A DNA stretch of 64,000 nucleotides from Deefgea piscis (GTDB lineage: Bacteria; Pseudomonadota; Gammaproteobacteria; Burkholderiales; Chitinibacteraceae), in NCBI RefSeq assembly GCF_019665785.1, contig NZ_CP081149.1, positions 1,426,001 through 1,490,000 of the forward strand. The letters are read 5' to 3'. A program made the translations under genes and the position numbers. Positions 36,648 to 60,671 of this stretch are shown piece by piece. Numbering within the stretch: the stretch's first letter is position 1; every line of letters begins with the position of its first letter. Under the pieces are notes generated by a model, which saw nothing but the letters and a program-made list of their open reading frames with translations, ran no database searches and had not been told where the DNA came from.

Positions 36648-36790
36648 AAAGAGTAGCTTTGTAAGCGTTAGTCACGACTTTAAAAATGACCCTTCGCTAC
36701 AAGGGGCATTTTTATTGGGTTCAATTTCACGACTATATTAGACAAGTTGCGACTTTAATTGCCAAGTTGCGACTTTAATAGGTCGGAATA
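36648..36790. repeat. Tn7-like right end of an older element (R1)
   Basis: About 140 bp nearly identical to the end next to glmS at 60530-60671. Reading inward from 36790 it has two perfect tandem copies of ATTAAAGTCGCAACTTG spaced 20 bp, then weaker copies AATATAGTCGTGAAATTG and TTTAAAGTCGTGACTAA. This is the pattern of clustered TnsB sites at Tn7-type right ends. It contains a terminator-like hairpin (GACCCTT...AAGGGGC plus T5). Five bases (ACCGC) separate it from the left end of the next element. Confidence 0.75.
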
Positions 36791-36795
36791 ACCGC

Positions 36796-36893
36796 TATTT
36801 CGACCTATTAAAGTCGTGAAATTAGATCAAGCATTTATGCGGTCTCCAGCGGCTACTAAAAACCGTTGGTTCTAGTAAAAGTCGTGAATTAAT
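36796..36893. repeat. Tn7-like left end of the glmS-proximal element (L2)
   Basis: It begins TATTTCGACC, matching both right ends in opposite orientation. Two TnsB-like motifs, CTATTAAAGTCGTGAAATTAG (36805-36825) and CTAGTAAAAGTCGTGAATTA (36872-36891), lie about 67 bp apart. Widely spaced sites at the left end and clustered ones at the right are the Tn7 design. Confidence 0.72.
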
Positions 36894-37387
36894 TTTTCAA
36901 TAAAATTTCATATAAATTATCAATATGGAAAGTTTAATTTCGTACTTGCGAGGTAGGAATTTTTCTCTCTTAGGCTGATCAATTATCGAGCTTTTAACAA
37001 CAATTGATCACAGCTGCATGGCTGTACCCAGTGTCTGCTTTGCTTAAGTTTTCTGTCTTTTAGCCAACAAGCCGGTGCTTCTGCTGTTCGGCCTTAGCGA
37101 ACAGTCAAAATACCTTTGTCGATGGATGAAATAAGTGCGCCACTATAAAGTAAGGGGTGCTGGTTAATACGGACACCAAAGTTTGAGACCAATTTTGTTG
37201 AAAATGTCGGCTTTGGCCGAGCAGCACAAGCAAGCCCAACAAATACTAAAGGCCGCAACCTGATGGCTAGCGGCCTTACAATTTTACAGCTTCGGCATCG
37301 ACACATTGGCTTTAGCCGCCATTCGTGTATTTCTGTAACGACATCGGATATCATTAAGAAATAGCTCAATAAATCGATGGCACCCGA
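36894..37387. other. Non-coding stretch inside the element's left end
   Basis: No gene is supported. An 8-bp perfect stem AAGGCCGC / GCGGCCTT near 37241-37269, followed by a T-containing tail, could be a terminator. The sequence TGCTGTTCGGCCTTAGC near 37082-37098 recurs at about 41411-41427 and in altered form near 52192, so it may be a small repeat or a terminator cassette. The promoter of the interrupted gene at 37388 should be here. Confidence 0.4.
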
Positions 37388-37650
37388 ATGTTCGACGAAA
37401 ACGATCTGATCAATTCTTCTTTGACGCAAAAATACACGTCCAATGGAAAGACTGTGGAAATATGCATTTATCGCATGCCGGATACTGATTGGACTTTGGA
37501 AGTTGTAGATCAGTACAATAATTCCACGGTCTGGGATGGAGAATTCGAAACGGATCAACAAGCGCTCGATTGTTTCTTTAGTGAAATCCAGCAAGACGGT
37601 ATTGAAGCAATGGTAATCCCCCCACTTTTAAGCTCACTTAAAAGTAGAGG

Positions 37651-37949
37651 TCAGGCATGTAATGCCAGTTTTTGTTTCGGGGTGATGCCACCCAAACCCA
37701 TGTGCGGGCGCTCGTTGTTGTAGCTCCAAAGCCATTGCGTGGCAACCTCTTGCACTTCAGCAAGACTTTCAAAGTCATCGCAAGCCAGCCATTCATGCCG
37801 CACGGTCCGATTATAGCGCTCGATATAGGCATTTTGCTGGGGATTGCCCGGCTGAATATACGCCAATTCAATTGAATGTTGTTCCGCCCAGTTTTTTAGC
37901 AACTGGCTAATATATTCAGGCCCATTATCTGAGCGAATCCGTTTTGGCT
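37651..37949 (-). pseudogene. IS3-family OrfB transposase, 3' half
   Basis: Begins after the IS66 insertion with KRIRSDNGPEYISQLLKNW and continues through IELAYIQPGNPQQNAYIERYNRTVRHEWL, which holds the catalytic Glu, to NNERPHMGLGGITPKQKLALHA. This is the C-terminal part of the rve integrase core. It is separated from its start by 2.5 kb of IS66. Confidence 0.88.
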
Positions 37950-37981
37950 GTAAGCGCTCAGCCGCTCCACCGCCTTGACGC

Positions 37982-39574
37982 TTAAGTTTCTGCTAGCGCT
38001 CTTAGCGGTAATAATTCGTCGATGCGGCTGTTCGGCCAAGTGGGGAGCTTTTCTAGGGTGTCGGTGAGCCAGGCCATCGGGTCAAGGTCGTTGAGTTTGG
38101 CGGTGCCCAGTAGCGTTTGAATTGCGGCAGCGCGTTGACCGGCGCGCTCGCTCCCCGCAAATAACCAGTTCTTTTTGCCAATCGCAATCGGCCGAATGCT
38201 GTTTTCGACCGGATTGTTATCGATTGGCGCGATGCCGCTTTGGGCGTAGCGTTCAAGCGCCGTCCAACGCCGTTGGCTGTAAATGATCGCTTTCGCGAGT
38301 GCGCTATTGGGCGCAACTTTGCTACCGGTTTCATCCAGCCAAATTTTGAATTCGAGCAGTTTAGGTTGCGCTTGTTGCTGCCGTAGCGCTCGGCGTTGTT
38401 CGGGGTTTAAATCTTTGGCCTGCGCTTCTAGTGCATACAATTCGCCAATTCGACGCAGTGCCTCTGCGGCAATCGGGCTGCCGTTGGCTTGATGCAATTC
38501 GAAGAATTTGCGCCGTGCGTGCGCCCAGCAGCCCAGCTCAATCACGCCGGTTTTGAACAGCGCTTTGTAGCCGCCATAGTCGTCGACCATCAATTGACCT
38601 TGCCAATCGGCGAGGAAATCTCGGACGTGTTGACCCGAGCGACCACCTTGATAGTCGAACAAAATGATCGGCGCACTGCCACTCAAAGGCGTATTGCGAT
38701 ACGCCCATAAATACGCGGTTTTGGTTTTGCCTTTGCCCGGATCAAGCTGTTTGACTGGCGTTTCATCGGCATGCAGCACCGTTTCGCCTTTCAATCGTTC
38801 ACGCAATCGATCCGCCAATGGCTGCAACCACCAGCCAACGGTGCCTACCCAGCTGGCCAGCGTGGTTTCCGCTAACGGCACTTCGCTGCGTTCAGCGATT
38901 TGTCGTAGCCGATACAGCGGTAAATGATCAATGTATTTGCTGACCATCACCCACGCCAAAGTGGCCGCAGTGGGTAAACCGCCATTGATGATCGCCGCCG
39001 GAATCGGCGCAGCGCTCATCGTTTGGCAGCTGCGGCAAGCGTATTGCGGGCGAATGTGGCGCAACACGCTAAACACCGCCGGTTGCACATGCAGTTGCTC
39101 GCTGATGTCTTCGCCGACTTTAACTAAACCCTGACCACATTGGCCGCAACTGCATGATTCAGGCTCGTGAACCATATCGGTACGCGGCAAATGCGCCGGT
39201 AAGGCTTGGCGACCTGCGCGAATGCGTGGCTTTTTATCGCTGACCTCGGGGGTGTTGTTGGCTTGCTCGGCGGCGAGTTTGGCTTCCAGCGCCGCCATAT
39301 CGGCATCGAGGGCTTCTTCAAACAAATCTCGCTGCTCGCGATTCATCACTTCGGTCTTAGCGCCATAACGCATGCGGCGCAGATAGGCCAATTCCATCGT
39401 TAGCGCTTCGATGGTTTGCGTTTTATTTTGGATGTCGGAGACGTATTGTTTGAGTTGTTGATCTTGCTGAGTGACTAATTCAGTATGCTGAGCAAGGAGT
39501 ACCGACTGCGCCAAAATCGCCGCGCGGACTGCGGCGGGTAGGTTTGAATTGGCGAGTTCTTGAGCGAGATCCAT
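37982..39574 (-). CDS. tnpC: IS66 transposase TnpC, copy A
   Basis: 530 residues. The N-terminal coiled coil (QQDQQLKQYVSDIQNKTQTIEALTMELAYLRRMRYG) is followed by a zinc-finger region (CSCGQCGQ, CRSCQ) and a DDE core: HADETPVKQL, MVDDYGGYKALF, and Glu in NNPVENSIRPIAIGKKNW. The length and order match the IS66 transposase. It is the last gene of the tnpABC set. Confidence 0.95.
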   Translation of the reverse strand: MDLAQELANSNLPAAVRAAILAQSVLLAQHTELVTQQDQQLKQYVSDIQNKTQTIEALTMELAYLRRMRYGAKTEVMNREQRDLFEEALDADMAALEAKLAAEQANNTPEVSDKKPRIRAGRQALPAHLPRTDMVHEPESCSCGQCGQGLVKVGEDISEQLHVQPAVFSVLRHIRPQYACRSCQTMSAAPIPAAIINGGLPTAATLAWVMVSKYIDHLPLYRLRQIAERSEVPLAETTLASWVGTVGWWLQPLADRLRERLKGETVLHADETPVKQLDPGKGKTKTAYLWAYRNTPLSGSAPIILFDYQGGRSGQHVRDFLADWQGQLMVDDYGGYKALFKTGVIELGCWAHARRKFFELHQANGSPIAAEALRRIGELYALEAQAKDLNPEQRRALRQQQAQPKLLEFKIWLDETGSKVAPNSALAKAIIYSQRRWTALERYAQSGIAPIDNNPVENSIRPIAIGKKNWLFAGSERAGQRAAAIQTLLGTAKLNDLDPMAWLTDTLEKLPTWPNSRIDELLPLRALAET

Positions 39575-39668
39575 GCTTTGATTTTACTGGGTATTGCCAT
39601 ACAAATCATATCCTTCATGATTTATAGGGTAATACTGCGACAACTATTTTATCCATCCGCAGCGTGAA

Positions 39669-40010
39669 TTAGTAGACATATTCTGGCAGCGGTGGCGGCG
39701 CTAATCGCTGCCAGTCGACACCGCTCACCAACCATTGCCACTGCGCCGCATCCAGCGTAAACACAGCATCGCCCGATTGTGGCCAAATAAATCGACCGTG
39801 ATGCAAACGCCGTTGCGCCAACCAGACGCCAGAGCGATCCCACAGCAACACTTTGAGGCGATTGCTGCGCTGATTGCGAAACGCATACGCTGCACCTTCG
39901 ACGGGTGAACGCTGCAAACAGGCGTGAATCTTGGCCGACAAACCCTCGATGCCAAGGCGCATATCGACCGGTTCGACGACCAATTGCAGCGAAGTGAATG
40001 GCGGCATCAT
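39669..40010 (-). CDS. tnpB: IS66 accessory protein TnpB, copy A
   Basis: 113 residues from the ATG at 40010, which overlaps the tnpA stop (ATGA). LQLVVEPVDMRLGIEGLSAKI, AYAFRNQRSNRLKVLLWDRSGVWLAQRRL and FIWPQ are the IS66 Orf2 signature. It is needed for transposition, but its mechanism is unknown. Confidence 0.92.
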   Translation of the reverse strand: MMPPFTSLQLVVEPVDMRLGIEGLSAKIHACLQRSPVEGAAYAFRNQRSNRLKVLLWDRSGVWLAQRRLHHGRFIWPQSGDAVFTLDAAQWQWLVSGVDWQRLAPPPLPEYVY

Positions 40011-40339
40011 GCCAAACCGCGCAATAACGCCGCGACCCAAGCCGGATCGGTCGCCGCAGGCAAAGTCAGGGTCACGCCGGAGGGGAAATTCAACTGCAAC
40101 TGCGCCGCAACGGGTGCGGGCCATTGTGCGGGCACGATGCTTGAAGCCGATGGTTTCGGAGCGATCTGCGGTTCGGTGATTGCAGCTGAAGATGCGTCGG
40201 CAGATTCGAGGCGGCTACGGCGCAGCCAACTGGAAAAAGTAGTGCGTTTAAGCTGGTGCACTCGGACAAACTCGGCTTGAGTTAAACCACTAGTCTGCCA
40301 ACGTTGAACCCATTGCAAAGCATCAATCCACCGTCCCAT
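40007..40339 (-). CDS. tnpA: IS66 accessory protein TnpA, copy A
   Basis: 110 residues from ATG 40339 (GGAG 6 bases upstream). The N-terminal helix-turn-helix WVQRWQTSGLTQAEFVRVHQLKRTTFSSWLRRSR is typical of IS66 Orf1. A Pro/Ala linker and a short beta segment (QLQLNFPSGVTLTLPAATDPAWVAALLRG) follow. Confidence 0.9.
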   Translation of the reverse strand: MGRWIDALQWVQRWQTSGLTQAEFVRVHQLKRTTFSSWLRRSRLESADASSAAITEPQIAPKPSASSIVPAQWPAPVAAQLQLNFPSGVTLTLPAATDPAWVAALLRGLA

Positions 40340-40415
40340 GCTGCGCTCCAAAAAATCAAAAGCGCAGCATGCCTGAATTAAAACGATAATTGAGGTGGAA
40401 CGGCTAAGCCCTTAC

Positions 40416-40952
40416 TTTTGGCTTGCCTCGCCATTCAATGATTTGATTCAAACTACGCACCACGCGCTCGGCCGGCAAAGAGAAATCAACATCAATCGCT
40501 AAACCCTCCCGATTAAAATCATCAATCACATTAAACAGGCGAATGCTGCGGCCATCGGCTAATTGATCGTGCATAAAATCCATCGACCACGTTTCATTGA
40601 TTTTCTCAGGCACTGCTAATGGTGCTGGCGTTGCACGAATTAAGCGTTTATTAGGCTTAATTCGCAGATTTAATTCTAAATCGCAATAAATCCGGTAGAC
40701 CCGTTTGTGATTCCAAGACTTTTTCTTGACGTTTCGTAGATGCAAAAAGCACAGACCAAAGCCCCATGTGCGATGAACTTGGGTAAGTTGCAGTAACGAA
40801 TCGGCAATTTTTTCATTTTCTGCGTCTAGTTTTGCCACATAGCGATAACAAGTCGTGCTGATCATAAAGCTAGCGCAAGCTGCACGAATCGAAACGGCCT
40901 TTGATTCAACGGCCCAGCGCGCCATCTCACGCCGCTGAGATGGCTTCACCAC
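40416..40952 (-). pseudogene. IS3-family OrfB transposase, 5' half
   Basis: Encodes the N-terminal domain ([22 protein letters not shown], then the HTH_21-like region) and the start of the DDE integrase core. The first Asp is in [30 protein letters not shown], followed by the second part. The frame is cut after ..IEWRGKPK by IS66 copy A; the remainder is at 37651-37949. Joining the halves and deleting one TTTTGGCT copy restores GKPKRIRSDNGPEY. Confidence 0.88.
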
Positions 40953-41474: not shown

Positions 41475-42395
41475 TTAACTAAGTTTTTTTGCCAAATTAA
41501 CTGAGTTCGCTGGTCGAGTGTTGATCACATTCAATATTAAGTCCCCCACAATTTGATTTGGAAGATGTCGCTGAACTGTAATGGCATAAAAATGCTCATA
41601 AACATTGGGCAAAATCATATAGCGGTGTAATTTCCCTAATTTTAGTTCGTCTTTCACGACCACTTCCGGCATTACGGTTAAGGCATTGCTATCGCGGGCA
41701 AGTAGCCGCATCATCGCCATGTCATCGGCCTCGGCGACGATTTTGGGCTGGAATTGGTGAAGAGCACAAAAAGCATCAAAAGCCGAGCGAATTGGACTTT
41801 CATCGACTGGCAAAATCCAATCTTGGGCGGCATAGTCGGCGGAAAAAATGGCGCCAAGTGCGAGTGTGGGTTGACCAATAATCGCCACGGGCTGCCTCGC
41901 GAGAAGCTGGCATTTCCATAAATTATCGTCGCTACCACTGACATCAATATTGCTCAGAACAATGTCGAGTTGATGGTTGGCTAGTTCATTCAGTAGCCGT
42001 GCTTGCCCTCTTGCGTGTAGCGAGTATTTGCTGTTGCCTTGTTGAATCAACGGCTCGATAAAACTCTCAATAAAATTACGCGACATCGTCGCTAGCATGC
42101 CAATTTTGATCGTCCGCTGCTGGGTATTTTCCCCTGTCAGTAACAGCGATTCTAATTCCCCGCCTTTTCTAAAAATCTCATCCGCATAGGAAAAAGTGGT
42201 TTGGCCGATTTCAGTCAAAATCAGCCTGCGTCCTTGCCGCGCGAATAATTGCACGCCCATATTGTGTTCAAGTTGTGCGATTTGCGAGGACAGTGCTGAC
42301 TGAGAAACATGTAGACGTTCTGCTGCTTTGGTGAGATTACCTTCCTTAGCAACTTGCCAAAAGTAGTTGAGGTGGTGGTAATTGAGTTTACTCAT
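41475..42395 (-). CDS. LysR-family regulator divergent from dabB
   Basis: 306 residues. The N-terminal winged helix-turn-helix is LNYHHLNYFWQVAKEGNLTKAAERLHVSQSALSSQIAQLE, followed by the linker helix and a periplasmic-binding-like effector domain (IKIGMLATMSRNFIESFIEPLI and onward). 'HLNYFW.VAKEGNLTKAAE' is typical of the NhaR/CbbR-like branch. It is divergently transcribed from the dabB-dabA operon, so it probably controls inorganic-carbon uptake. An A+T-rich dyad lies in the 104-base gap between them. Confidence 0.9.
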   Translation of the reverse strand: MSKLNYHHLNYFWQVAKEGNLTKAAERLHVSQSALSSQIAQLEHNMGVQLFARQGRRLILTEIGQTTFSYADEIFRKGGELESLLLTGENTQQRTIKIGMLATMSRNFIESFIEPLIQQGNSKYSLHARGQARLLNELANHQLDIVLSNIDVSGSDDNLWKCQLLARQPVAIIGQPTLALGAIFSADYAAQDWILPVDESPIRSAFDAFCALHQFQPKIVAEADDMAMMRLLARDSNALTVMPEVVVKDELKLGKLHRYMILPNVYEHFYAITVQRHLPNQIVGDLILNVINTRPANSVNLAKKLS

Positions 42396-42407
42396 TTACG
42401 TTCTCTA

Positions 42408-42439
42408 AAATAGAATTATTTGTTAATAATAATCTATTT
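42408..42439. promoter_or_regulatory. Candidate LysR operator between lysR and dabB
   Basis: Inverted repeat AAATAGA (42408-42414) / TCTATTT (42433-42439), enclosing ATTATT..AATAAT sub-arms, in the 104-base divergent gap. Size and place suit a LysR-type binding site. It is the only strong dyad there. Confidence 0.5.
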
Positions 42440-42499
42440 TTATTAATCTTGGTGTCATGTGATACTCCTTTCACCGCAACGAACCATAAGGAGATCAAA

Positions 42500-44032
42500 A
42501 TGCAGCTGAGTATTCTTTTGACTTATTCCCTGCCAGCCGTGGTCCTATTACCACTACTGGCCGTCACGCCTAATTCCTCACGTTGGGCAAGGGCGCAAAT
42601 AGCAACAGGGCTTGCCGCTGCTTTGGCTTTGATTTCATGGTTACTCTTAATCACTACTGGTGCGCCGCAGTCCTCGCTGGGTTGGTTCAATCCAAGCATC
42701 TTGAATGTCACTATGCTAGTTTTGATCAGTTTTATTGCTTGGATTGTACTGAACTATGCCAAAACCAATTTTGAGTCTGATGGCGATAATCAACGATTTT
42801 TACGTTGGTTTCTGCTAACAGTGTGTGCGGTGATGGTGACGGTGGCGAGTAATCACTTGTTGGTGTTCTGGCTTGGTTGGGTTGCAATCAGTTTGAGCAT
42901 GCATCAGTTGCTGATGTTTTATCCCAACCGAAATCGGGCCGCACTGGCAGCACATAAAAAGTTTATTTTTGCTCGGCTTGCCGAACTCTGTTTGGCGGTG
43001 GCGTTTGGTTTGTTATACAGCCAGCACTCTACATTCCTTATCACAGAAATCTTGCATGAAGTATCGAATGCACCGCTGAATGCAGTACACCAAGTCGCTG
43101 CATTTTTGATTGCCTTGGCGGCCTTGATCAAGTGTGCGCAATTGCCACTGCATGGCTGGTTGATTCAGGTTGTTGAGTCGCCAACGCCGGTCTCTGCCCT
43201 CATGCATGCTGGTGTAATCAATATGGGTGGTTTTTTACTACTGTTGTTTGCACCCTTGTTTGGTCTGGCCCTCGCCGCTCAATGGCTGGTTTTAATTGTG
43301 GCGGGCCTCACTACGGTGATTGCCGCTTTGGTGATGATGACTCGTATCAGTATCAAGGTACGTTTGGCTTGGTCGACCACGGCGCAAATGGGTTTAATGC
43401 TAGTGGAGTGTGCGCTGGGTCTGTATGAATTGGCCTTCCTGCATCTGCTCGCACATTCTTGCTACAAAGCGTATGCATTCTTAAATTCAGGAAATGCCGT
43501 CGATGAGGCTATGCAAAAGCAGTTTTTGGCAGTGCCCCTGCCTAATTTGCAGGGCTGGGTATTGGCTGGCACCATCTCTTTAGGCTTGTTGTTGGGCTTG
43601 AAATGGGCTGTTGGTTTACCTGCTCCGCTCAGCCCTTGGTTACTGATCGGCTTTGCGATGATGTTTACGCTAGCGATACGATTTAGCCAGTTACAGACCT
43701 TATCGTGGCTGAAAAGTTTGCTGATGTGTATTGCCTTGCTAGCTAGTTATTACCTCTTGAAAACCAGTGTGGCTCTGATGTTGCCCGTGGTTGAACATAG
43801 TTACAGCGTAGCGGCGGATCTTTGGATTAGTGGGCTGTTCCTTAGCTTATTAGTCTTGAATTTTTTACTGCAATATCGCGCAGATCGCCTTGCAGTGAAA
43901 AAGCTCTTTATCGCACTCAATGCTGGGTTTTATTTAGATGAATGGTCTAGCCGAATCACTTTAAAACTATGGGCCATTAGCCTGCCAAAAAATGCCGTAC
44001 AAACTCGTTTGAGCCTTCTGGGGGAGAAATAA
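42500..44032 (+). CDS. dabB: DabB: membrane subunit of the DAB inorganic-carbon pump (NuoL-like)
   Basis: 510 residues with about 14 hydrophobic segments, of the proton-translocating Mrp/NuoL type. Key residues include LVFWLGWVAISLSMHQLL and the Lys/His-bearing helices IKCAQLPLHGWLIQVVESPTPVSALMHAGVINMGGFLL, the quinone-independent proton-channel signature. It lacks the other complex I genes around it and is followed 1 base later by dabA, which marks it as DabB. DabB is thought to use proton motive force to drive CO2-to-bicarbonate conversion by DabA. The start is ATG 42500 after AAGGAG. Confidence 0.93.
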   Translation: MQLSILLTYSLPAVVLLPLLAVTPNSSRWARAQIATGLAAALALISWLLLITTGAPQSSLGWFNPSILNVTMLVLISFIAWIVLNYAKTNFESDGDNQRFLRWFLLTVCAVMVTVASNHLLVFWLGWVAISLSMHQLLMFYPNRNRAALAAHKKFIFARLAELCLAVAFGLLYSQHSTFLITEILHEVSNAPLNAVHQVAAFLIALAALIKCAQLPLHGWLIQVVESPTPVSALMHAGVINMGGFLLLLFAPLFGLALAAQWLVLIVAGLTTVIAALVMMTRISIKVRLAWSTTAQMGLMLVECALGLYELAFLHLLAHSCYKAYAFLNSGNAVDEAMQKQFLAVPLPNLQGWVLAGTISLGLLLGLKWAVGLPAPLSPWLLIGFAMMFTLAIRFSQLQTLSWLKSLLMCIALLASYYLLKTSVALMLPVVEHSYSVAADLWISGLFLSLLVLNFLLQYRADRLAVKKLFIALNAGFYLDEWSSRITLKLWAISLPKNAVQTRLSLLGEK

Positions 44033-44033
44033 A

Positions 44034-46478
44034 ATGTCAAAAGCAAATCACTCAACTCAATTAGGATCAGTTCGAGCTACAGCATTACTTGCGTGTGAGC
44101 GGATCGCGCCAGCATGGCCACTCGATCAATCGATGGCGGTCAATCCCTGGTGGAAAATGCGCGATTTGCCGATGTCAGCGGTGGCAGCGAAACTGCAAGC
44201 TTTAGGTGGTGTACATTTATTGATGCCCAAGTCCTATTATCGAGCGCAATGGCAAACTGAAATCAAGGATAGTCATTTGGCAAAAGCGGCTCAGGAGCTA
44301 GGGCTTGTTGCTTCAGAGACAGCGTTAGTGGCTTACTTGGCAATGCCAGAGCGCCACACTCATTGGTTAAATGTTTGTGATTTGCTCGATGCCGACCCTC
44401 GTCATCAGCACAAAATGCCATGGCGTGATGAGATCGTGCAGCAAATCAGTCAATTTACTGCGCTGTACTTTCAATACCCAGAGCATATGCAACAGCAGGT
44501 GGATGTCGACAATCATTTTTATCAAGGTTGGCTTGAGGTTATCCGCCAAGATGAAGGGATTGAAGTCTTGATGGGTGAGTCGGGATTGAACGCTCAGTTT
44601 GCACATCTGCCTGAACAAGCCGATGCACTCTTGGCGCAAGTTCATGCCGCGATGTTTGCGCAAGGCTTGCCTGAATCGGTGTTTGTTGATTACTGCTACG
44701 CCTTGCTGTTGGATATGCATGGCTGGGCGTCTTGGTTAGCTTATGGCGCATGGCAAGATGCGTTTGAAGGTAAGTCAAACACATTGCTGCTGCAATTACT
44801 GGCGGTACGGATGGCTTGGGATTGGGCGCTTTGGACTCAAACGCAAAGCCGTGACACGAAGCAATTTGCGCAATTACAACGGCAATTTGGACTGCAACTG
44901 CAGCAGTCAGCTCAACTTGAGCAAAGCTGGTACGCCACACAGCAGTATCTGTGGGTCTGGCAGCGGGCACTTGAATATGCGTATCAGCAACCGCTACATG
45001 AACAATTGGTTCGCTGTGAGGCTACACCTGTGCAGAATCAGCAACTACAGGCCATTTTTTGTATCGATGTGCGTTCAGAACCCATGCGCCGAGCGCTTGA
45101 GGCACAAAGCCCTGCGATTCAGACTTTAGGTTTTGCTGGGTTTTTTGGCTTACCCATCGAATATTCAGTATCGGGTAGCCAATATACTCGTCCGCAACTA
45201 CCTGGCTTACTAAAGGCATCGATTCGCGTTGAGCAAACGGGTTCAGCAAAATCGCGGCAATCGGTAGCGGGTGGATTACATGGCCAAGTGGCGGAGAAAC
45301 AAACGGGTGATGCGGCACCTGCGACCTTCGGTATTGTGGAGGCAAAGGGCTTGTATCGTGCGGTGAATTTGGTGAAGAACACTTTTTTCCCGGGAACAGC
45401 AGTGCACAGCATCAATCAAATCGATTTGGAAGGACCTTGGACGCTCAGCAGTCATGGCCGCGAACTGACCGATGCAGAGCTGGCCAAAATGGCGGCCGGA
45501 ATTTTAGGTGCGATGGGCTTGAAAAGCGATTTTGCGCCAGCTGTTCTCTTAGTGGGGCACGGTAGCAGCTCAACGAACAACCCTCATGCGGCAGGGCTCG
45601 ATTGTGGCGCTTGCGGCGGTCAATCGGGTGAAGTGAATGTGAAAGTATTGGCGCAAGTATTGAATACGGCCGGCGTGCGCGCTGAGTTGAGCGTGCTGGG
45701 TATCCACATTCCTACGCAAACGCAATTTGTGGCCGCGCTGCACAATACCACCACGGATAAATTTGTTTGTTTTGGTGTTGAAGGATCGTATCTATGGCAA
45801 AGCTGGTTGCGCCAAGCAACAGCGCAAGCACAAAAAGCACGTGCTTTGAGTGTGGGCATCACGAATGAAGACGCAAAAGTGCTGGATCGTTTGTTTCAGC
45901 AGCGTGCGAAAGATTGGGCGCAAATCCGCCCAGAGTGGGGCTTGGCTAATAATGCCGCGTTTATCGTTGCTCCGCGCGCGATGACGCAACGTTTGGATTT
46001 GGCTGGACGCAGTTTTCTGCACGATTACAAATATCAGGAAGACACGGGTTTTAGCGTGCTTGAGTTGATCATGACCGCCCCGATGGTCGTGACGAACTGG
46101 ATTAACTTGCAATATTACGCATCGGTGACGGATAACCTGAAATACGGCAGTGGCAATAAATTGCTGCACAACGTGGTTGGTGGGAATTACGGTGTATTTG
46201 AAGGCAATGGCGGCGATTTGCGGGTGGGTTTATCGATGCAATCAATCCATGACGGTGAAAATTGGCGACATCATCCGCTGCGCCTCAGTGTTTACATCGC
46301 CGCGCCGAGGGACGCCATCGAGGCCATTATCGTGAAGCATCAAGCAGTGGCTGATTTAATTCAAAACCAATGGCTGTTTTTGTTCCAATGGGATACCGAC
46401 TTGAAGCAAATCTGGCAGTACAGCGCTGGCCAGTGGCAATTAGTGCACGCGGAACGGGAGGTCGAATGCGTACTTTAA
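44034..46478 (+). CDS. dabA: DabA: zinc-binding carbonic-anhydrase-like subunit (DUF2309)
   Basis: 814 residues. The predicted zinc site is Cys343 and Asp345 ([17 protein letters not shown]), His509 ([16 protein letters not shown]) and Cys524 ([11 protein letters not shown]). These match the spacing of the proven DabA ligands in Halothiobacillus, including the CID pair and the 15-residue His-Cys step. VKNTFFPG and the C-terminal [22 protein letters not shown] are also typical. DabA with DabB accumulates bicarbonate in the cytosol. It is translationally coupled to dabB and overlapped at its end by cysD. Confidence 0.94.
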
Positions 46479-47386: not shown

Positions 47387-47430
47387 ATGAAATTGTCTGT
47401 AATCGTACAACAGTTAGTGCGAATTTGAGC

Positions 47431-52294: not shown

Positions 52295-52957
52295 TCAAAA
52301 CAAAGATTGCTGCGGTGAGGGTATGGGGTGTGACCGGATTTGCGGTAAGGCATCCGCGCGCATCAATTCAGCTGGGTAATTCTTCAAAAACGTTCGCGCT
52401 AGCTCAGGGTTTTTGCAGCTCAGCCACGCGTCATAGTCGGCCTCGGGAATGATGACTAAGTTTCGCTTTTCATCGTTTGGTTTGTGCATGCGTTTCATCA
52501 GCGGATGCTCATCTGCGTTGATGGTGATTTGCGTGAACGAATAGCTGCGTCGGCCATTTTCTTCTTCCCATGCGCGCCACAATCCCGCCACCGCAAACGG
52601 CGCATCATTGAGCAAGCTGATTTGATGCCTTACCGCTTTGCCTGATTCATAACACGGCTCAAAAAATCCCATCATCGGCACCAAACAAAGCTGGCTGCGT
52701 TGCCATGCGCCTTGATAGCGTTGCCCTATGGTTTCGGCGCGGGCGTTCATGGTGCTATAGCGCGCACCTTGCGGTAGTTTGGCCTTGGGCAAGAAACCAT
52801 AGTTCGCGACTACAGCTTGTCGACCTTGGCGGCCATGCACAATCATCGGCGCAGCGTAGTCTTGCCACACTTCATCAGGCCAGTCGGCCTTGGGTTCAAT
52901 CGCGGCAAATTGGCTAAGCACTAACCGTTTAGGAATTGGAATGTAATTTACGCACAT
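52295..52957 (-). CDS. SOS response-associated peptidase (SRAP, YedK/HMCES-type)
   Basis: 220 residues of the SRAP family, which crosslinks to abasic sites in single-stranded DNA through Cys2. That Cys directly follows the initiator Met (MCVNYIP). Active-site neighbours are STMNARAETIG (Asn), MMGFFEPCYES (Glu) and PLMKRMHKPN (His). The length is normal. It is divergent from umuD-umuC across a 54-base gap, so all three are probably induced by DNA damage. Confidence 0.92.
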   Translation of the reverse strand: MCVNYIPIPKRLVLSQFAAIEPKADWPDEVWQDYAAPMIVHGRQGRQAVVANYGFLPKAKLPQGARYSTMNARAETIGQRYQGAWQRSQLCLVPMMGFFEPCYESGKAVRHQISLLNDAPFAVAGLWRAWEEENGRRSYSFTQITINADEHPLMKRMHKPNDEKRNLVIIPEADYDAWLSCKNPELARTFLKNYPAELMRADALPQIRSHPIPSPQQSLF

Positions 52958-52962
52958 AGAAA

Positions 52963-52981
52963 AGAACGTTCGTTCTATAAT
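52963..52981 (+). promoter_or_regulatory. Palindromic operator overlapping a -10 box, between SRAP gene and umuD
   Basis: AGAACG-TT-CGTTCT (52963-52976) is a perfect 6-bp dyad whose last T begins TATAAT (52976-52981), a consensus -10. It resembles GAAC-N4-GTTC, not the CTGT-N8-ACAG box of enterobacterial LexA. It lies in the 54-base divergent gap and could control both directions. Confidence 0.6.
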
Positions 52982-53011
52982 ATTCTGATTCAGATGGTTT
53001 CAGGATAACCC

Positions 53012-53461
53012 ATGTCATTGCATTTGCACCCGCCAATCCCCGCCGCACTTGAAGCAAAGTCACTCTATTTACCCGTCATGGGTGTTTCGGTTTCGGCTGG
53101 CTTTCCGTCGCCTGCCGAAGATTGGGCCGAAGAGCGTGTCGATTTGAATCAACGTTATGTGCAGCATCCCGAGGCAACCTTTTACTTTACGGTTGCAGGT
53201 GACAGCATGGTCAGCAGTCTTGCCGAACGCTCCATCCCTGATGGCGCAACGCTGATTGTTGACCGTGCTTTGAGCGCCAAGCACGATGATATTGTTGTGG
53301 CGGTGATTGATGGCGATTTTACCGTAAAGCGTTTGTATTGCCGTGGCGCACGCTTGGCGCTGATTGCTGAAAATCCAGCCTATCCGCCGATTGTATTGGG
53401 CGAAGAGCAAGAGTTATCAATTTGGGGCGTGGTGACAGCGTGGATAGCGAGGCCGCGATGA
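53012..53461 (+). CDS. umuD: UmuD-like S24 peptidase
   Basis: 149 residues. The self-cleavage site is Ala29-Gly30 ([13 protein letters not shown]), the nucleophile Ser65 (VAGDSMVSS), and the general base Lys106 ([10 protein letters not shown]). After RecA-stimulated self-cleavage UmuD' joins UmuC as DNA polymerase V. It overlaps umuC by 4 bases (ATGA). RBS AGGATAA. Confidence 0.93.
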
Positions 53462-54723
53462 TTGCCTTGGTCGATGTGAATAATTTCTATGTATCATGCC
53501 AACGGGTATTTGAACCCAAGCTAATGGGTAAACCCGTGGTGGTGCTATCGAATAATGATGGCTGTGTGGTGGCGCGTAGTAGCGAAGCCAAAGCACTGGG
53601 CATCAAAATGGCTGCGCCGTGGCATCAATTACGTGATTTTGCGCAGCAAGAAGGCATCATCGCCCGTAGCAGCAATTACGCGCTGTATGCCGATATGAGC
53701 CATCGGGTAATGACCATACTCAGCCGCTTTAGCCCGAACCAAGAGATTTACAGCATCGACGAATGCTTTTTGAGTTTTGACGGCCTACTGCAAGACCATA
53801 CCGAACTAGCGCAAAACATTCGCCGTACCGTATTGCAATGGACGGGCTTACCCGTGTGCGTTGGCATTGCCCCAACCAAAACGCTCGCCAAACTCGCCAA
53901 TCACATCGCCAAGAAACAAGCGCCATTCAATGGTGTGTGTGCATGGCAGCAACTCAACCCCAACCAACAAGACGCGCAAATGCAGGCTTTGCCTGCGGGT
54001 GATGTATGGGGTATTGGCCGCAAAATATCTGAGCGATTAGCGCAGGAAGGGATACATACCATCGCTGATTTAAGAGCCAGCAATGCTGACCAGATACGGC
54101 AACGGTATAGCATCGTCGTACAACGCACCGTGCATGAACTACGCGGCATACCGAGTATTGAATTGGAAGAATCGACACCCGACAAACAGCAAATCCTGTG
54201 TTCACGCAGCTTTGGCCAAGCGATTTATACCGAGCAAGAGTTAGGTGAAGCCATCAGCACCTACATCGCTCGTGCCGCTGAAAAACTACGTCAACAAGGC
54301 TCACTTGCAGGCAGTTTGGCGGTGTTTATACGCACCAATCCGTTTCGCCCCAAAGAGCCGCAATACAGTCAGCACATCCTCGTTCCGCTTACGCAAGCCA
54401 GCGACGATACGCTATTGCTGACCCGCGCTGCGCTATGGGTGCTCAAACGTATTTATCGAACGGGATTTGCCTACGCCAAAGCAGGCATAATGCTGTGCGA
54501 CCTGCAACCCAGAACGGCAGTCCAAGGCCATCTATTTCTACAAACCGCCGACCCCATCAAACGTGCGGCACTCAATAAAGTCATGGACGACATCAATCGC
54601 CAATGGGGACGCGGCTCAATCCGTGTTGCCAGTGCGGGGTTTAATCACGGCTGGAAAATGCGGCAGAACACCTTATCGCCGTATTGGACCACGCGGTGGG
54701 CGGATTTGCCGATTGCTCGATAA
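53458..54723 (+). CDS. umuC: DNA polymerase V catalytic subunit UmuC
   Basis: 421 residues, Y-family translesion polymerase. The catalytic carboxylates are in [17 protein letters not shown] (residues 2-18) and [10 protein letters not shown] (~100). [19 protein letters not shown] is the conserved palm/thumb motif, followed by the HhH region and little finger, then a C-terminal beta-clamp-like stretch. The ATG overlaps the umuD stop by ATGA. UmuC copies past lesions with low fidelity. Confidence 0.95.
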
Positions 54724-54733
54724 ATGGCGCGGT

Positions 54734-55675
54734 ATGATTTGCATTGGCTTTATCTCAAGATTCGTCGTACATTTCACTCTACCTTTTGTTCTGCATTTAA
54801 AAGAGCTTCACTTGGATTATTTTTGTTTTGAATCAGTTGAATGTATAGGCAAACCAATTTCCGTAGATTTTGAAAAGTACGAGAACAATATTGCTTATGC
54901 AATTGGGCACAGTCTTGCGGATTACCGCAAATGTGTAAAAAACGGGCAGCAAGAAATGGCCAATTGCTTTGGCGTTTCTATTGGGCAATATCGTAAATAT
55001 GAAGCTGGAATTGATGTGCCTAAAATGCATTCAGCGGCTAGATGGTCTGCGACAACAGGGGCACCATTACCACTGTTGTTTAAATATACCGAATACGCTA
55101 AATTTTTCCCACCGGAAGAATTGATATATCGCCCCTATTTCAATTTAATTGCCAAATCGAATGATAAGAATTTTTATTCGCTGCTCAGTTTGCTGTCCGG
55201 CAAGCCTGAGTGGAGTAATTGTGTCGCTGCAAATGATGATGCACTAAATTTTCAACAGGCTCTTGATGATGTACTGACCAATTACTATTTCAGGGTTATG
55301 AAAAACTTTGAGGCAATTCGTCACTTTCACAATTTATCTCGCGGTGAAATGGCGCATTTGTTGGGCGTATCTTCGGCCACCTACGCTAAATATGTCAGCC
55401 AAGCAGAAAAAATTAGTATCTCACTGCTCTTATATGCGCGAGCTCATGTCGCACTCAGCATTGATACAAATTGGGCTAAAACAGGAAGTACGTTTTATTC
55501 CCTGATTAATAAAAGACGAAAAGACCGAACCTCTGTTATTGAAGGACTTTTGCAAAAACTTGACAAGAGAAATGCCGATAATTTTCAGTCTATGTTAAGT
55601 CTATTTGGTGAGCAGCATGAGCGTATCCAACAATTGCAAGACGCTCTGAGTAATGTGCCAGAGCGCATTAATTAA
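54734..55675 (+). CDS. Tandem helix-turn-helix protein of unknown function
   Basis: About 313 residues from ATG 54734, 10 bases after umuC; the start is uncertain, as its RBS is poor and the first ~45 residues are atypical. Two XRE-like helix-turn-helix segments are visible. One is near residues 55-100 (YRKCVKNGQQEMANCFGVSIGQYRKYEAG), the other near 195-240 (RHFHNLSRGEMAHLLGVSSATYAKYVSQAEKIS). A C-terminal helical tail (ALSNVPERIN) ends it. It may regulate the adjacent SOS set, but this is inference from position. Confidence 0.65.
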   Translation: MICIGFISRFVVHFTLPFVLHLKELHLDYFCFESVECIGKPISVDFEKYENNIAYAIGHSLADYRKCVKNGQQEMANCFGVSIGQYRKYEAGIDVPKMHSAARWSATTGAPLPLLFKYTEYAKFFPPEELIYRPYFNLIAKSNDKNFYSLLSLLSGKPEWSNCVAANDDALNFQQALDDVLTNYYFRVMKNFEAIRHFHNLSRGEMAHLLGVSSATYAKYVSQAEKISISLLLYARAHVALSIDTNWAKTGSTFYSLINKRRKDRTSVIEGLLQKLDKRNADNFQSMLSLFGEQHERIQQLQDALSNVPERIN

Positions 55676-55725
55676 CAATTAAGGCGACTGTACTGGGATT
55701 AAATTCGGTTATTGCAGCTATGCAA

Positions 55726-56952
55726 TTACGCACATGTAGGCGCCGTAATGGCAATGCAATTGGTTTCGGCTTGCCGCGCAAGGTGAAAGCAAATCAAGGA
55801 AAGAATACACATAATGACATTGCTCGCCAAAGCAAGTTGATAACCCCAGCTACTTGCCAATAAGCCACCAACAAAAGCCCCTAGCGCCATGCCACCTACG
55901 ATTGAATTTGCATATAAAGTCGACGCATAACCCAATCTATTTTTGGCTTGATGCTGAAAAAATTGTAAGCCTGCTGTTGCACTCAGGGCGATACTAGCCG
56001 CACCTATCATTTGTATTGCCATTAAAAACATCATGGATGTTGCGGTTACAAACAACAGGTAATAAATTGAGCCTAAGGCTGCTGCAAGAAGTAATTGTTT
56101 TTGATGACTGATTCTTTTGCTGATTCTTCCTGATAGCAACATTAAAGGAATTTCAAATGCTGCAGTCAATCCAAAAAAAACACCGGGCAGCCACTCGGGG
56201 TGTTTTGCCATTTTCATTATATACAAAGGCATGGCCATCGTATAATTGGTTCCCGCTGCAAACAAAAACACCATCCCCGCTATAGCTAACAATAGCTTGA
56301 GATTTAATTTTGTATTTTCAGGTGCTTTTTCTGATTTTTGCTGCTCAGGTTTTACCGCGAGCGGCATATGCAGCTTTAACGCGGCAAAGGCAATGCAAGC
56401 ATATGAAACAATCAAAATTGCGAACGTCATATTAAAACTGAATAAACTAACTAGGCTAAAGGCCATTGGTGGGCCAATTACCCATGCCATGGATACTACT
56501 GCACGCATTGTTCCCATTAGAGACTCATTTTCATCGCCGAACACTTCAGCGGCAAGAGCAAAAAGCTGCGGAGCGCCAATGGACACGCAGGCCAGTAAAG
56601 TCAGGCCAATAAATGCGAGCGCGTAGATATTCTTGATAAAGATAAAACCGATGAAGGCCAATATGCCACATGCAGCTGAAAAAATAATTAATTTATGCCG
56701 AGCGATACCACGGTCTGAATACATGGCAACTAGCTGTGATACCAAAATCGTAGCAAAACTAGATATAGCAAGATAAGTGCCAACGATAGATGGTGCAGCA
56801 CCCAGCTCATTCACAAAGAAGTAGCTTTGCAATGGCCCAAAAATTGACGAACAAATTCCCATAAGAAAAGTGACGCCAAGGAATATGAATTGACTTGAAT
56901 TTATTTTTGGCATTGATGAGCTCAGAGGGTGATTTGCATAAGTAAATGCCAA
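55726..56952 (-). CDS. MFS efflux transporter (SET/sugar-efflux-like)
   Basis: 408 residues with about 12 hydrophobic segments and typical MFS loops, MYSDRGIARHKLI between TM2 and TM3 and SGRISKRISHQKQLLLA in the second half. FGPLQSYFFVNELGAAPSIVGTYLAISSFATI resembles the SET (sugar efflux) branch. It probably exports a sugar or drug; the substrate is unknown. It is monocistronic and convergent with the HTH gene. Confidence 0.8.
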   Translation of the reverse strand: MAFTYANHPLSSSMPKINSSQFIFLGVTFLMGICSSIFGPLQSYFFVNELGAAPSIVGTYLAISSFATILVSQLVAMYSDRGIARHKLIIFSAACGILAFIGFIFIKNIYALAFIGLTLLACVSIGAPQLFALAAEVFGDENESLMGTMRAVVSMAWVIGPPMAFSLVSLFSFNMTFAILIVSYACIAFAALKLHMPLAVKPEQQKSEKAPENTKLNLKLLLAIAGMVFLFAAGTNYTMAMPLYIMKMAKHPEWLPGVFFGLTAAFEIPLMLLSGRISKRISHQKQLLLAAALGSIYYLLFVTATSMMFLMAIQMIGAASIALSATAGLQFFQHQAKNRLGYASTLYANSIVGGMALGAFVGGLLASSWGYQLALASNVIMCILSLICFHLARQAETNCIAITAPTCA

Positions 56953-57303
56953 TCTCTCGTGATCAATAGAGTGGCATCTGAATTTTAAATTGCAGAAATA
57001 AGCAATTTGGTTGGCAAATCATACATAAGCCAGTAGCGACACAAAATCCGCCAAGGTATATCTTTTAATTCGTAAAAATATACTTTAGTAACTTGAGATT
57101 CGTTGAGAAGTATGGGCACAAAATGTTCGAATAAAATGCATGCGTCAGTGGGTAAAACTCAAATAGCATGTTTGTTTTTATTGTGGTGATGCTATTTGTC
57201 TTCTCTTGGTAGACTGTTGCCTAATCCAGCCTAGCCATTCCAATCAAGCATCAGCCCTCAAATATTCATGGCCGATTCTGTAAGTAAATTTGAAAAACAT
57301 CAG
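56953..57303. other. Intergenic region with a 9-bp dyad
   Basis: No gene is supported. A perfect inverted repeat AAATAGCAT (57161-57169) / ATGCTATTT (57189-57197) lies here. It may be a terminator-like or regulatory hairpin, or a recombinase-related site. Confidence 0.4.
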
Positions 57304-57939
57304 TCAATTCACTTGTGATTCTATTCTTCTTTTTTGAATCTCATCCTTTACCCGCTTAATCGTTCCGCGCCCACACCCCAGTAAATCTTGAATCGCACTC
57401 CACGATTTACCCTCAGCCAGCAGGCTAGCAATTTTGCGGTGCAGCTCAGCGTCTTTCGGGCGGCCTGCGTATAGGCCTTGCGCCTTGGCTTTAGCGATGC
57501 CATCAGCTTGACGGCGACGACGGTCGTCGTAATCTTTGCGAGCAATGGCGGCGAGCATATCAAGCAGCATGTTGTTAATCGCTGCCAGCATTAGCGCAGT
57601 GAAGCTATCACCATCTTTCAGCATGTCGTGACTGGTCGGCAAATCGAGCGCGACAATTCGCATGCCTTTGTCGCTAATCATGTGCCGTAGCTTGAGCCAG
57701 TCAGCGTTTTTCATACGACTTAGTCGGTCAACCTGCTCAACAAGTAATACATCGCCGTGACTTGCATCATTCAAGAGTCGCATTAACTCGGGGCGGTCGA
57801 GTTTGGTGCCGCTTTCATTCTCTATGTAATAACTGGCAATGCGTAAATTATGCTCGGCGGCAAACGCATCAAGTTGCTGCCGCGCACGACTGGCATCTTG
57901 CTCTTTGGTACTGGCACGAAGGTAGGCTCGAACAAACAT
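57304..57939 (-). CDS. Serine recombinase (Tn3 resolvase/invertase type)
   Basis: 211 residues. The catalytic Ser10 is in FVRAYLRASTKEQDASRARQQL. Further resolvase motifs are EQVDRLSRMKNADWLKL, AIARKDYDDRRRRQADGIAKAKAQGLYAGRPKD (the arm region) and a C-terminal helix-turn-helix (HRKIASLLAEGKSWSAIQDLLGCGRGTIKRV). Such proteins recombine res or inversion sites. It sits inside the Tn7-like element next to IS66 copy C. A cluster of GTTCC repeats lies just upstream. Confidence 0.92.
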   Translation of the reverse strand: MFVRAYLRASTKEQDASRARQQLDAFAAEHNLRIASYYIENESGTKLDRPELMRLLNDASHGDVLLVEQVDRLSRMKNADWLKLRHMISDKGMRIVALDLPTSHDMLKDGDSFTALMLAAINNMLLDMLAAIARKDYDDRRRRQADGIAKAKAQGLYAGRPKDAELHRKIASLLAEGKSWSAIQDLLGCGRGTIKRVKDEIQKRRIESQVN

Positions 57940-58020: not shown

Positions 58021-58154
58021 TGGTTGATAAGCGGTTTTATGAGGTTTCGTTGAGGTATACCTTATTGGTACTTGTGATTTGATGTAGTACCGACTACAAA
58101 ATTTGTGTAAGTTGCGTTTAACGTAAGCGCTCAGCCGCTCCACCACCGTGACGC

Positions 58155-59747
58155 TTAAGTTTCTGCTAGCGCTCGTAGCTGTAATAATTCGTCGATGCGG
58201 CTGTTCGGCCAAGTGGGGAGTTTTTCTAGGGTGTCGGTGAGCCAGGCCATCGGGTCAAGGTCGTTGAGTTTGGCGGTGCCCAGTAGCGTTTGAATTGCGG
58301 CAGCGCGTTGACCGGCGCGCTCGCTCCCCGCAAATAACCAGTTCTTTTTGCCAATCGCAATCGGCCGAATGCTGTTTTCGACCGGATTGTTATCGATTGG
58401 CGCGATGCCGCTTTGGGCGTAGCGTTCAAGCGCCGTCCAACGCCGTTGGCTGTAAATGATCGCTTTCGCGAGTGCGCTATTGGGCGCAACTTTGCTACCG
58501 GTTTCATCCAGCCAAATTTTGAATTCGAGCAGTTTAGGTTGCGCTTGTTGCTGCCGTAGCGCTCGGCGTTGTTCGGGGTTTAAATCTTTGGCCTGCGCTT
58601 CTAGTGCATACAATTCGCCAATTCGACGCAGTGCCTCTGCGGCAATCGGGCTGCCGTTGGCTTGATGCAATTCGAAGAATTTGCGCCGTGCGTGCGCCCA
58701 GCAGCCCAGCTCAATCACGCCGGTTTTGAACAGCGCTTTGTAGCCGCCATAGTCATCGACCATCAATTGACCTTGCCAATCGGCGAGGAAATCTCGGACG
58801 TGTTGACCCGAGCGACCACCTTGATAGTCGAACAAAATGATCGGCGCACTGCCACTCAAAGGCGTGTTGCGATACGCCCATAAATACGCGGTTTTGGTTT
58901 TGCCTTTGCCCGGATCAAGCTGTTTGACTGGCGTTTCATCGGCATGCAGCACCGTTTCGCCTTTCAATCGTTCACGCAATCGATCCGCCAATGGCTGCAA
59001 CCACCAGCCGACGGTGCCAACCCAGCTGGCCAGCGTGGTTTCCGCTAACGGCACTTCGCTGCGTTCAGCGATTTGTCGTAGCCGATACAGCGGTAAATGA
59101 TCAATGTATTTGCTGACCATCACCCACGCCAAAGTGGCCGCAGTGGGTAAACCGCCATTGATGATCGCCGGCGGAATCGGCGCGGCGCTCATCGTTTGAC
59201 AGCTGCGGCAAGCGTATTGCGGGCGAATGTGGCGCAACACGCTAAACACCGCCGGTTGCACATGCAGTTGCTCGCTAATGTCTTCGCCGACTTTAACTAA
59301 ACCCTGACCACATTGGCCGCAACTGCATGATTCAGGCTCGTGAACCATATCGGTACGCGGCAAATGCGCCGGTAAGGCTTGGCGACCTGCACGAATGCGC
59401 GGCTTTTTATCGCTGACCTCGGGGGTGTTGTTGGCTTGCTCGGCGGCGAGTTTGGCTTCCAGCGCCGCCATATCGGCATCGAGGGCTTCTTCAAACAAAT
59501 CTCGCTGCTCGCGATTCATCACTTCGGTCTTAGCGCCATAACGCATGCGGCGCAGATAGGCCAATTCCATCGTTAGCGCTTCGATGGTTTGCGTTTTATT
59601 TTGGATGTCGGAGACGTATTGTTTGAGTTGTTGATCTTGCTGAGTGACTAATTCAGTATGCTGAGCAAGGAGTACCGACTGCGCCAAAATCGCCGCGCGG
59701 ACTGCGGCGGGTAGGTCTAAATTGGCGAGTTCTTGAGCGAGATCCAT
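58155..59747 (-). CDS. tnpC: IS66 transposase TnpC, copy C
   Basis: 530 residues, intact. It combines B-type N-terminal residues (ANLDLPAAVRA, LPPAIINGG) with A-type residues in the middle (AERSEVPLAETTLASW, YLWAYRNT), as expected for a recombinant. Confidence 0.95.
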   Translation of the reverse strand: MDLAQELANLDLPAAVRAAILAQSVLLAQHTELVTQQDQQLKQYVSDIQNKTQTIEALTMELAYLRRMRYGAKTEVMNREQRDLFEEALDADMAALEAKLAAEQANNTPEVSDKKPRIRAGRQALPAHLPRTDMVHEPESCSCGQCGQGLVKVGEDISEQLHVQPAVFSVLRHIRPQYACRSCQTMSAAPIPPAIINGGLPTAATLAWVMVSKYIDHLPLYRLRQIAERSEVPLAETTLASWVGTVGWWLQPLADRLRERLKGETVLHADETPVKQLDPGKGKTKTAYLWAYRNTPLSGSAPIILFDYQGGRSGQHVRDFLADWQGQLMVDDYGGYKALFKTGVIELGCWAHARRKFFELHQANGSPIAAEALRRIGELYALEAQAKDLNPEQRRALRQQQAQPKLLEFKIWLDETGSKVAPNSALAKAIIYSQRRWTALERYAQSGIAPIDNNPVENSIRPIAIGKKNWLFAGSERAGQRAAAIQTLLGTAKLNDLDPMAWLTDTLEKLPTWPNSRIDELLQLRALAET

Positions 59748-59841
59748 GTGTTGATTTTACAGGGTATTGCCATAAGAATTATATATTACATGCTGTATAG
59801 CGCAATACTGCGACAACTATTTTATCCATCCTCATCGTGAA

Positions 59842-60183
59842 TTAGTAGGCGTATTCTGGTAGCGGTGGCGGCGCGAGTCGTTGCCAATCGACCCCACTCA
59901 CCAACCATTGCCACTGCGCCGCATCCAGCGTAAAGATCACATCGCCCGCTTGCGGCCAAACAAACCGACCTTGATGCAAACGCCGCTGTGCCAACCACAC
60001 ACCGGTGCGATCCCACAGCAACACCTTCAAGCGATTACTGCGCTGATTGCGAAACGCATACGCCACACCTTCGATGGGGGAACGCTGCAAACGGGCATGA
60101 ATCTTGGCCGACAAACCCTCGATACCAAGGCGCATATCGACCGGTTCGACAACCAATTGCAGCGAAGCCAATGGCGGCATCAT
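59842..60183 (-). CDS. tnpB: IS66 accessory protein TnpB, copy C
   Basis: 113 residues from the ATG at 60183, identical or nearly identical to copy B except MMPPLASLQLV at the very start, where the sequence becomes unlike A and B. Confidence 0.9.
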   Translation of the reverse strand: MMPPLASLQLVVEPVDMRLGIEGLSAKIHARLQRSPIEGVAYAFRNQRSNRLKVLLWDRTGVWLAQRRLHQGRFVWPQAGDVIFTLDAAQWQWLVSGVDWQRLAPPPLPEYAY

Positions 60184-60418
60184 GCCAAAGCGCGCAGCAG
60201 ATTCGCCAACCAAGTGGCGCAGGTGCTGGTCGGTAAGGACAAATCGACCCCATTGGCCAAACGCAGCTGCAATGTTTCGGCACTGGGCGTTGGCCATTGC
60301 GTCGTCACCAAAGTCAGCGGGGCAATGGACGAATTTGTTATGGGTGCGGCATCAAAAGTCGTGGTGGCGGATAAATGGGTTTGATGGCGTTTCACCCAGC
60401 TTGAAAAAGTAGCACGCT
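60180..60418 (-). pseudogene. tnpA: IS66 TnpA remnant, copy C
   Basis: Only the C-terminal ~80 residues remain, from YKRATFSSWVKRHQTH to LRLANGVDLSLPTSTCATWLANLLRALA, of a different tnpA allele. The N-terminal helix-turn-helix is missing; an in-frame stop precedes YKR. The copy is probably unable to transpose on its own. Confidence 0.82.
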
Positions 60419-60519
60419 TATAACCATGCTACCGCTCCAGAGATAAAAAGCGCAGCATGCCAGAGTCCGTGAAGAAATTGCTGTGGTACGGCTGAGCCCT
60501 TACCTCTGAGCGACTCACT

Positions 60520-60671
60520 TTTTTACGATAATTAGTGGATTTGTAAGCTTTAGTCACGACATTAAAAATGCCCTTCGCTGCAAGGGGCATTTTTATTGGA
60601 TTCAATTTCACGACTATATTAGACAAGTTGCGACTTTAATTGCCAAGTTGCGACTTTAATAGGTTGAAATA
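60520..60671. repeat. Tn7-like right end next to glmS (R2)
   Basis: Starting from 60671 and reading inward: TATTTCAACC, then two tandem copies of ATTAAAGTCGCAACTTG (20 bp apart), then AATATAGTCGTGAAATTG, a hairpin (below), and AATGTCGTGACTAAAG. It duplicates R1 at 36648-36790 almost base for base. Its outer edge lies 21 bp from the glmS stop. Confidence 0.78.
60566..60597 (+). terminator. Hairpin terminator inside the right end
   Basis: ATGCCC-TT...AA-GGGGCAT followed by T4; it is also present in R1 with one change (GACCCTT). It may block transcription crossing the element end. Confidence 0.6.

Follow-up and report, generated by a model that had tools for sequence, protein, structure and literature searches.

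The 3′ side of the glmS gene in Deefgea piscis is bordered by sequences that appear to be the ends of stacked Tn7-like elements. The window analysed here is a stretch of 64,000 nucleotides, positions 1426001-1490000 of a genome made up of one contig of 3,575,158 bases (NZ_CP081149.1, referred to as G000). The glmS gene, with its SIS and glutamine amidotransferase domains, occupies 60693..62549 on the minus strand, and its 3′ end is the presumed attachment site. Facing it lies a right-type end, R2 (60535..60671, minus strand), which runs inward from its terminus ...GGTTGAAATA at 60671, 21 bp off the glmS stop codon, and is flanked on the outside by the five bases TGTAT (60672..60676). R2 contains two perfect sites at 60644-60660 and 60624-60640 and, by eye, two weaker ones at about 60609-60621 and at 60556-60565. 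Another right-type end, R1 (36648..36790, minus strand), runs inward from 36790 and matches R2 at 93.5% identity across 139 aligned bases; its two perfect sites lie at 36763-36779 and 36743-36759. Exactly 5 bp, ACCGC (36791..36795), separate R1 from a left-type end, L2 (36796..36935, plus strand), which opens with TATTTCGACCTATTAAAGTCG and has AAAGTCG sites beginning at 36809 and 36877, 68 bp apart. The overall layout is therefore R-5bp-L ... R-21bp-glmS.

The perfect sites are the only four exact matches of ATTAAAGTCGCAACTTG in the window, all on the minus strand (36743, 36763, 60624 and 60644) and forming two pairs with a spacing of 20 bp within each, while in 100 shuffles the motif with up to three mismatches was met on average 0.37 times and at most three times. 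Profiles partly derived from the window's own end sequences score R1 at 156, R2 at 150 and L2 at 126 bits, with L2 at 81 bits under a later ten-sequence L profile; the top scores in 20 locally shuffled windows were 8.5 bits for R and 7.3 bits for the ten-sequence L profile. The consensus terminus is ...GGTYGRAATA at the R ends and TATTTCGACC... at the L ends. The profile scan detected neither a left end belonging to the R1 element nor any additional end in the window, and Rfam gave no matches between 35900 and 61000. Closely spaced, putatively TnsB-type sites at R, spread sites at L, and an R end that faces glmS about 20-25 bp past the stop codon are all features of Tn7-like elements. An earlier note on this DNA had described R2 with its two perfect and two weaker motifs, a near-identical R1 and an adjoining left-type end with widely spaced motifs as the architecture of Tn7, and the positions, the motif scan, the alignment, the fixed distance from the stop codon and the 5-bp R-L spacing all agree with that description.

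The region downstream of glmS is variable within the genus. The alignment of G019 with the window breaks off at 36329 and picks up at 60694; the 24.4-kb interval is absent, with about 2 kb of other sequence in its place. In G021 and G022 synteny with the window extends to about 21180 and resumes at glmS. The gene itself is present in all seven same-genus genomes, with differing sequence downstream. A decayed R-L pair in G019 is located just outside a subtilase-like gene pair, and the same gene pair lies inside R1 in the window, which suggests that an older element of the form L1-(subtilase pair)-R1 existed, whose L1 would no longer be detectable in the window. The DNA immediately inside R1 (36482..36647) is conserved with both R ends of G007 and matches no assigned protein or RNA family. 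Other types of Tn7-like ends seemingly also follow glmS in the family, for example in G005, G020, G023, G040 and G042 (stretches L108-L137 and L138-L146), with distances that rest on an assumed offset; with several end types after the gene, the site looks like a general hotspot in the family.

Homologues of the R end were found by BLASTN, independently of the profiles, in 10 of the 43 genomes of the family, with E-values down to 1.4e-51 outside the own genome. In eight of the ten an intact R end stands beside glmS at 21-24 bp from the stop codon: 21 bp in G000, 22 in G007 and G029, 23 in G006, G009 and G034, 24 in G008, and 23 by a count by eye in G026. G033 and G019 were left out of this count, their R ends being decayed or away from that distance. 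The likeness among R ends ceases at ...AATA, and the following five bases vary by genome, except for an AAAAA common to G029 and G034. Across six relatives of other genera, the R ends are considerably more alike than the genes they adjoin. Relative to G000, glmS DNA is 68-70% identical and R ends 83-94% identical in G007, G008, G009 and G006, and in G034 and G029 the values are 59% for glmS and 81-83% for the R ends. The simplest reading of these identities is that the R end moved between genera horizontally instead of descending with glmS. The R ends of G009 and G006 (L040:15166-15295 and L042:14449-14578) have one 20-bp site unit fewer than the others.

Beyond the family, a sample of 369 genomes of the class yielded only the own genome and a 29-bp match within an open reading frame (ORF) that, in our own reading, resembles chorismate synthase, and plasmids and viral contigs gave no match. 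A scan of genome contigs for the terminus matched eight stretches, three of them at glmS, in a Formivibrio metagenome-assembled genome (MAG), in Chitinibacter sp. GC72 and in one further MAG. The remaining matches are three Collimonas stretches, one of Methylophilaceae and one of Winogradskyella, the last taken for a chance match, as no end features were seen there. The Collimonas and Methylophilaceae matches include left-type ends of the same end family away from glmS. Left-type ends with the same terminus are found in two Collimonas genomes at L187:3943 and 14038, L185:10726, L186:10875 and L188:10241, with no glmS among the ORFs listed for these stretches, and in Collimonas sp. OK412 both left-type ends lie exactly 5 bp from a right-type end of different build (…GGACCA).

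The termini themselves are atypical. TAT/ATA rather than TGT/ACA is found at 18 of the 20 scored ends, R1, R2 and L2 included, in a tally that omits G019 and G033, whose ends are decayed, as well as more remote end types such as that of G025. The ten R ends with TAT comprise two each in G000 and G007 and one each in G006, G008, G009, G026, G029 and G034, and the eight L ends are those of G000 and G007, one on a Methylophilaceae contig and five in the two Collimonas genomes. The two exceptions with TGT are both in G026, its second R end and its L end. A cut two bases further in, giving a 9-bp spacer (TA-N5-TA), was held less likely because the sister ends in G026 show canonical TG/CA at the same place. 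According to a review (PMC11406308), Tn7-like ends are typically TGT/ACA, with exceptions among CRISPR-associated transposons (CASTs), and a VchCAST library study (PMC10201428) reports the terminal TG to be essential. The ends described here lack the TG that this studied relative needs, which leads to two testable questions: what kind of TnsB can act on TA ends, and do elements consisting of ends only rely on mobilisation in trans?

No Tns protein was found between L2 and R2, neither by Pfam among the 17 scanned ORFs, out of 37 of at least 100 amino acids, many overlapping, nor by TniQ, Mu-transpos_C and TnsA models run against all six frames of the genome. The Pfam matches in the interval include parts of IS66 and IS3-type transposases, a serine resolvase, DabA and an antiporter-type partner, SRAP, a PAPS-reductase-domain protein and proteins resembling UmuD and UmuC, among others. 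The scanned ORFs yielded no Cas protein either, although no search was aimed at Cas or CRISPR. Elsewhere in the genome, where the earlier note had proposed to look for Tns homologues, the three models each match in one place, a single TnsABC-TniQ set at 1359713-1367726. It lies 95 kb left of R1, and upstream of its tnsA is a different repeat cluster, AACCCCMAGTNAA at 1368683, 1368727 and 1368749, on account of which the set is probably not cognate to R1, L2 and R2 and has been set aside, though not disproved. Used as queries, its proteins found no match in the 15 stretches L032-L046. The set, whose TniQ protein is TniQ/TnsD-like, is part of a region (G000:C1:1347387-1368770; L011, L012) that also contains a nuclease-domain gene, Wadjet genes (JetABCD, with a weak JetB match) and OloAB.

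Among nine R-end genomes, namely the eight with an intact end beside glmS and G033, the TniQ model matches in three (G000, G033, G034), TnsA in three (G000, G029, G034) and Mu-transpos_C in four (G000, G008, G029, G034), the match in G008 being possibly of phage origin. None of the three models matched in G006, G007, G009 and G026; absence by the TnsA and Mu-transpos_C models is weak evidence, as both miss the candidates in G020, which the TniQ model does find. The TnsB candidate of G020 as a query matched only G000 among the nine. In a scan of the surroundings of five TniQ-model matches and of all but one of the 31 TnsA-model matches, three spaced AAAG sites occur only at G003 and G004. In the same-genus G020 (G020:C5; L099, L100), TniQ, TnsD and candidate TnsA, TnsB and TnsC are encoded about 16-26 kb from glmS; neither the TnsA nor the TnsB candidate scores with any Pfam family.

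Taken together, the locus is probably a stack of Tn7-like elements at attTn7 beside glmS, with the copies in the window being remnants or non-autonomous. The downstream side of glmS would serve as a Tn7-type attachment site, and R1, L2 and R2 would be TnsB-bound ends of one family. Each arrival would insert 21-24 bp past the stop codon, on the glmS side of the R end already in place, pushing older elements outward and leaving R-5bp-L junctions behind. As the interval from L2 to R2 yielded no tns gene, the elements would have been moved by a TnsABC and TniQ/TnsD set acting in trans or since lost. Junctions of the expected form are present in G000 (ACCGC), G007 (ACCGA) and G026, and the decayed R-L pair of G019 may be a further case. 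In G026 the spacer, GCAAA in the R-to-L direction, equals the 5-mer after the glmS-side R end, as would be expected had another element later inserted at this very point; the probability of such an agreement by chance is 1 in 1,024.

Several observations weigh against this reading. The GCAAA match spans two unjoined contigs of a MAG listed at 6% contamination, and in the two other stacks the flanks are unequal, ACCGC against TGTAT in G000 and ACCGA against GTAGT in G007. No left ends were found for the R ends of G006, G008, G009, G029, G033 and G034 in the stretches examined, the window's ends lack the TGT/ACA typical of Tn7-like elements, and no cognate transposase was identified in the R-end genomes. 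With unequal flanks, termini other than TGT/ACA and no tns genes found between the ends, the elements of the window are described as remnants or non-autonomous, not as an intact Tn7-like transposon. The earlier note had explained the R1-L2-R2 order by an older element displaced by a newer one. Stacking at one site stands, with comparable junctions elsewhere, but the insertion of one newer element next to an older one at this place does not follow from the window, given its unequal flanks, the failure to find tns genes between L2 and R2 and a recombinant IS66 copy directly inside R2.

The unequal flanks, together with a chimeric IS66 copy adjoining R2, make it likely that the present L2-R2 pair was rearranged via IS66 copies or arrived as a ready-made stack, and we think that the same choice, import or rearrangement, applies to the stacks of both G000 and G007. 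The IS66 copies speak for rearrangement in G000. Copy A (37950..40418, minus strand) has an 8-bp duplication, TTTTGGCT, and so has copy D outside the window, whereas copies B (48495..50961, minus strand) and C (58123..60503, minus strand, directly inside R2) are without target duplications, and copy C is recombinant, being 98.4% identical to copy B over about 2.07 kb and then diverged, with 77% identity over the last 84 bp. R2 could accordingly be the right end of a third element, joined to L2 by recombination between IS66 copies, so that remnants of three elements would be present. This is a serious possibility, if somewhat short of an even chance; against it, G007 shows the same flank mismatch with other insertion-sequence genes near its R2, and other insertions or decay could also erase target duplications. 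Alternatively, the stack could have been assembled in a different host and imported as a single unit by way of an outer left end and R2, which would explain why the junction spacer does not match the glmS flank of the window. The R1-L2 junctions of G000 and G007 are indeed 84.5% identical over 439 bp and their spacers (ACCGC and ACCGA) almost agree, yet their glmS flanks differ. No left end flanked by TGTAT was found further out, however, L2 being the sole L end detected in the window, and this course of events is considered rather unlikely.

That the repeats are ordinary chromosomal sequence, a case that the earlier note named as refuting its reading, and would come from a duplicated conserved terminator region of glmS, is very improbable and was rejected. 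A terminator-like hairpin is present in the R ends and some of the glmS-side R ends have no left end found, but between genera the R ends resemble each other much more closely than the glmS genes do, the sequence after the gene is a different one in other same-genus genomes, G019 lacks the interval altogether, R1 sits 24 kb away from glmS with a left-type end next to it, and the left-type ends of Collimonas and Methylophilaceae lie away from glmS. It is also improbable, though less so, that the ends belong to another DDE-type element that homes to glmS and is no relative of Tn7. The TAT/ATA termini and the four of nine R-end genomes in which the TnsA, TniQ and Mu-transpos_C models go unmatched would agree with such an origin, while the site geometry, the 5-bp spacing, the R end turned toward glmS at the Tn7 distance and the sister TGT ends in G026 fit a Tn7-like element. 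A more speculative extension of the stacked Tn7-like reading, and a distinctly doubtful one, is an ends-only cargo family of Tn7 type with TAT/ATA termini, TnsB-like sites, a portable R-end terminator and no transposition genes of its own, which would spread between Chitinibacter-family genera and home to glmS via borrowed TnsABCD tolerating non-TG ends, ready-made stacks moving as a unit.

The hairpin in R2 (60566..60593, minus strand; stem 60571-60586) is accompanied by T-runs and is terminator-like on both strands. Four terminator-like sites in the stretch against a shuffle mean of 1.9 mean little by themselves. Eleven aligned R ends give 11 predicted pairs, three of them with two-sided changes that keep the pair. 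The covariation term is small (-0.19 of -8.56 kcal/mol), and the alignment of the second G026 end is poor in this part. Tn7 reportedly inserts into the E. coli glmS terminator, going by the title of a 1986 paper by Gay and others. The hairpin of the R end may take over the role of the glmS terminator, suggesting how an element could land in the terminator region without harm to glmS.

The subtilase-like gene and its adjacent ORF (34230..35838, minus strand) are the presumed cargo of the older, R1 element. Presumed cargo between L2 and R2 comprises a LysR regulator, an antiporter-type protein, DabA, a PAPS-reductase-domain protein and a DUF6671 protein (41475..48252), followed by glyoxalase, SRAP, UmuD-like, UmuC-like, HTH and MFS proteins and a serine resolvase (51262..57939). 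The SRAP-UmuDC block at 52295-54723 has a second copy, 84% identical, outside the window at G000:C1:1370293-1372653, and overlapping tandem-like direct repeats are found at 51816-51999, with 82-nt copies spaced 41 and 61 bp.

Stacks of Tn7-like elements at glmS build genomic islands, and the ends described here seem to have crossed genera more recently than the adjacent glmS genes diverged, in carriers in which no cognate transposase has been identified. No account of glmS stacks without tns genes, and no link between these genera and Tn7, was found among the listed titles and abstract openings of open-licence papers. Tn7 of E. coli inserts about 20 bp past the glmS stop codon with 5-bp duplications (PMC2918618), and its ends have clustered sites at R and spaced sites at L (PMC11406308). 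The window is alike in insertion distance, in the layout of R and L sites and in the 5-bp spacing, and differs in having no tnsABCDE between the ends, TAT/ATA termini and unequal L2 and R2 flanks. The Tn7-like elements of G003 and G004, from the same family, use the same glmS site and have repeated AATAAAGT sites about 20 bp apart; in contrast to the window, their TnsA, TnsB, TnsC and TnsD genes lie beside glmS, they start with TGT, and the repeat sequence is another one. The TnsABC-TniQ set at 1359713-1367726 is a heteromeric Tn7-like transposase in the same cell, differing in place and repeats. Non-TGT ends are likewise known from CRISPR-associated Tn7-like transposons, some of types I-F3 and I-D (PMC11406308). 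Finally, a Tn7-like element may insert inside or beside another one, according to PMC8649781; the stack is a known kind of arrangement, and its ends are an unusual variant.

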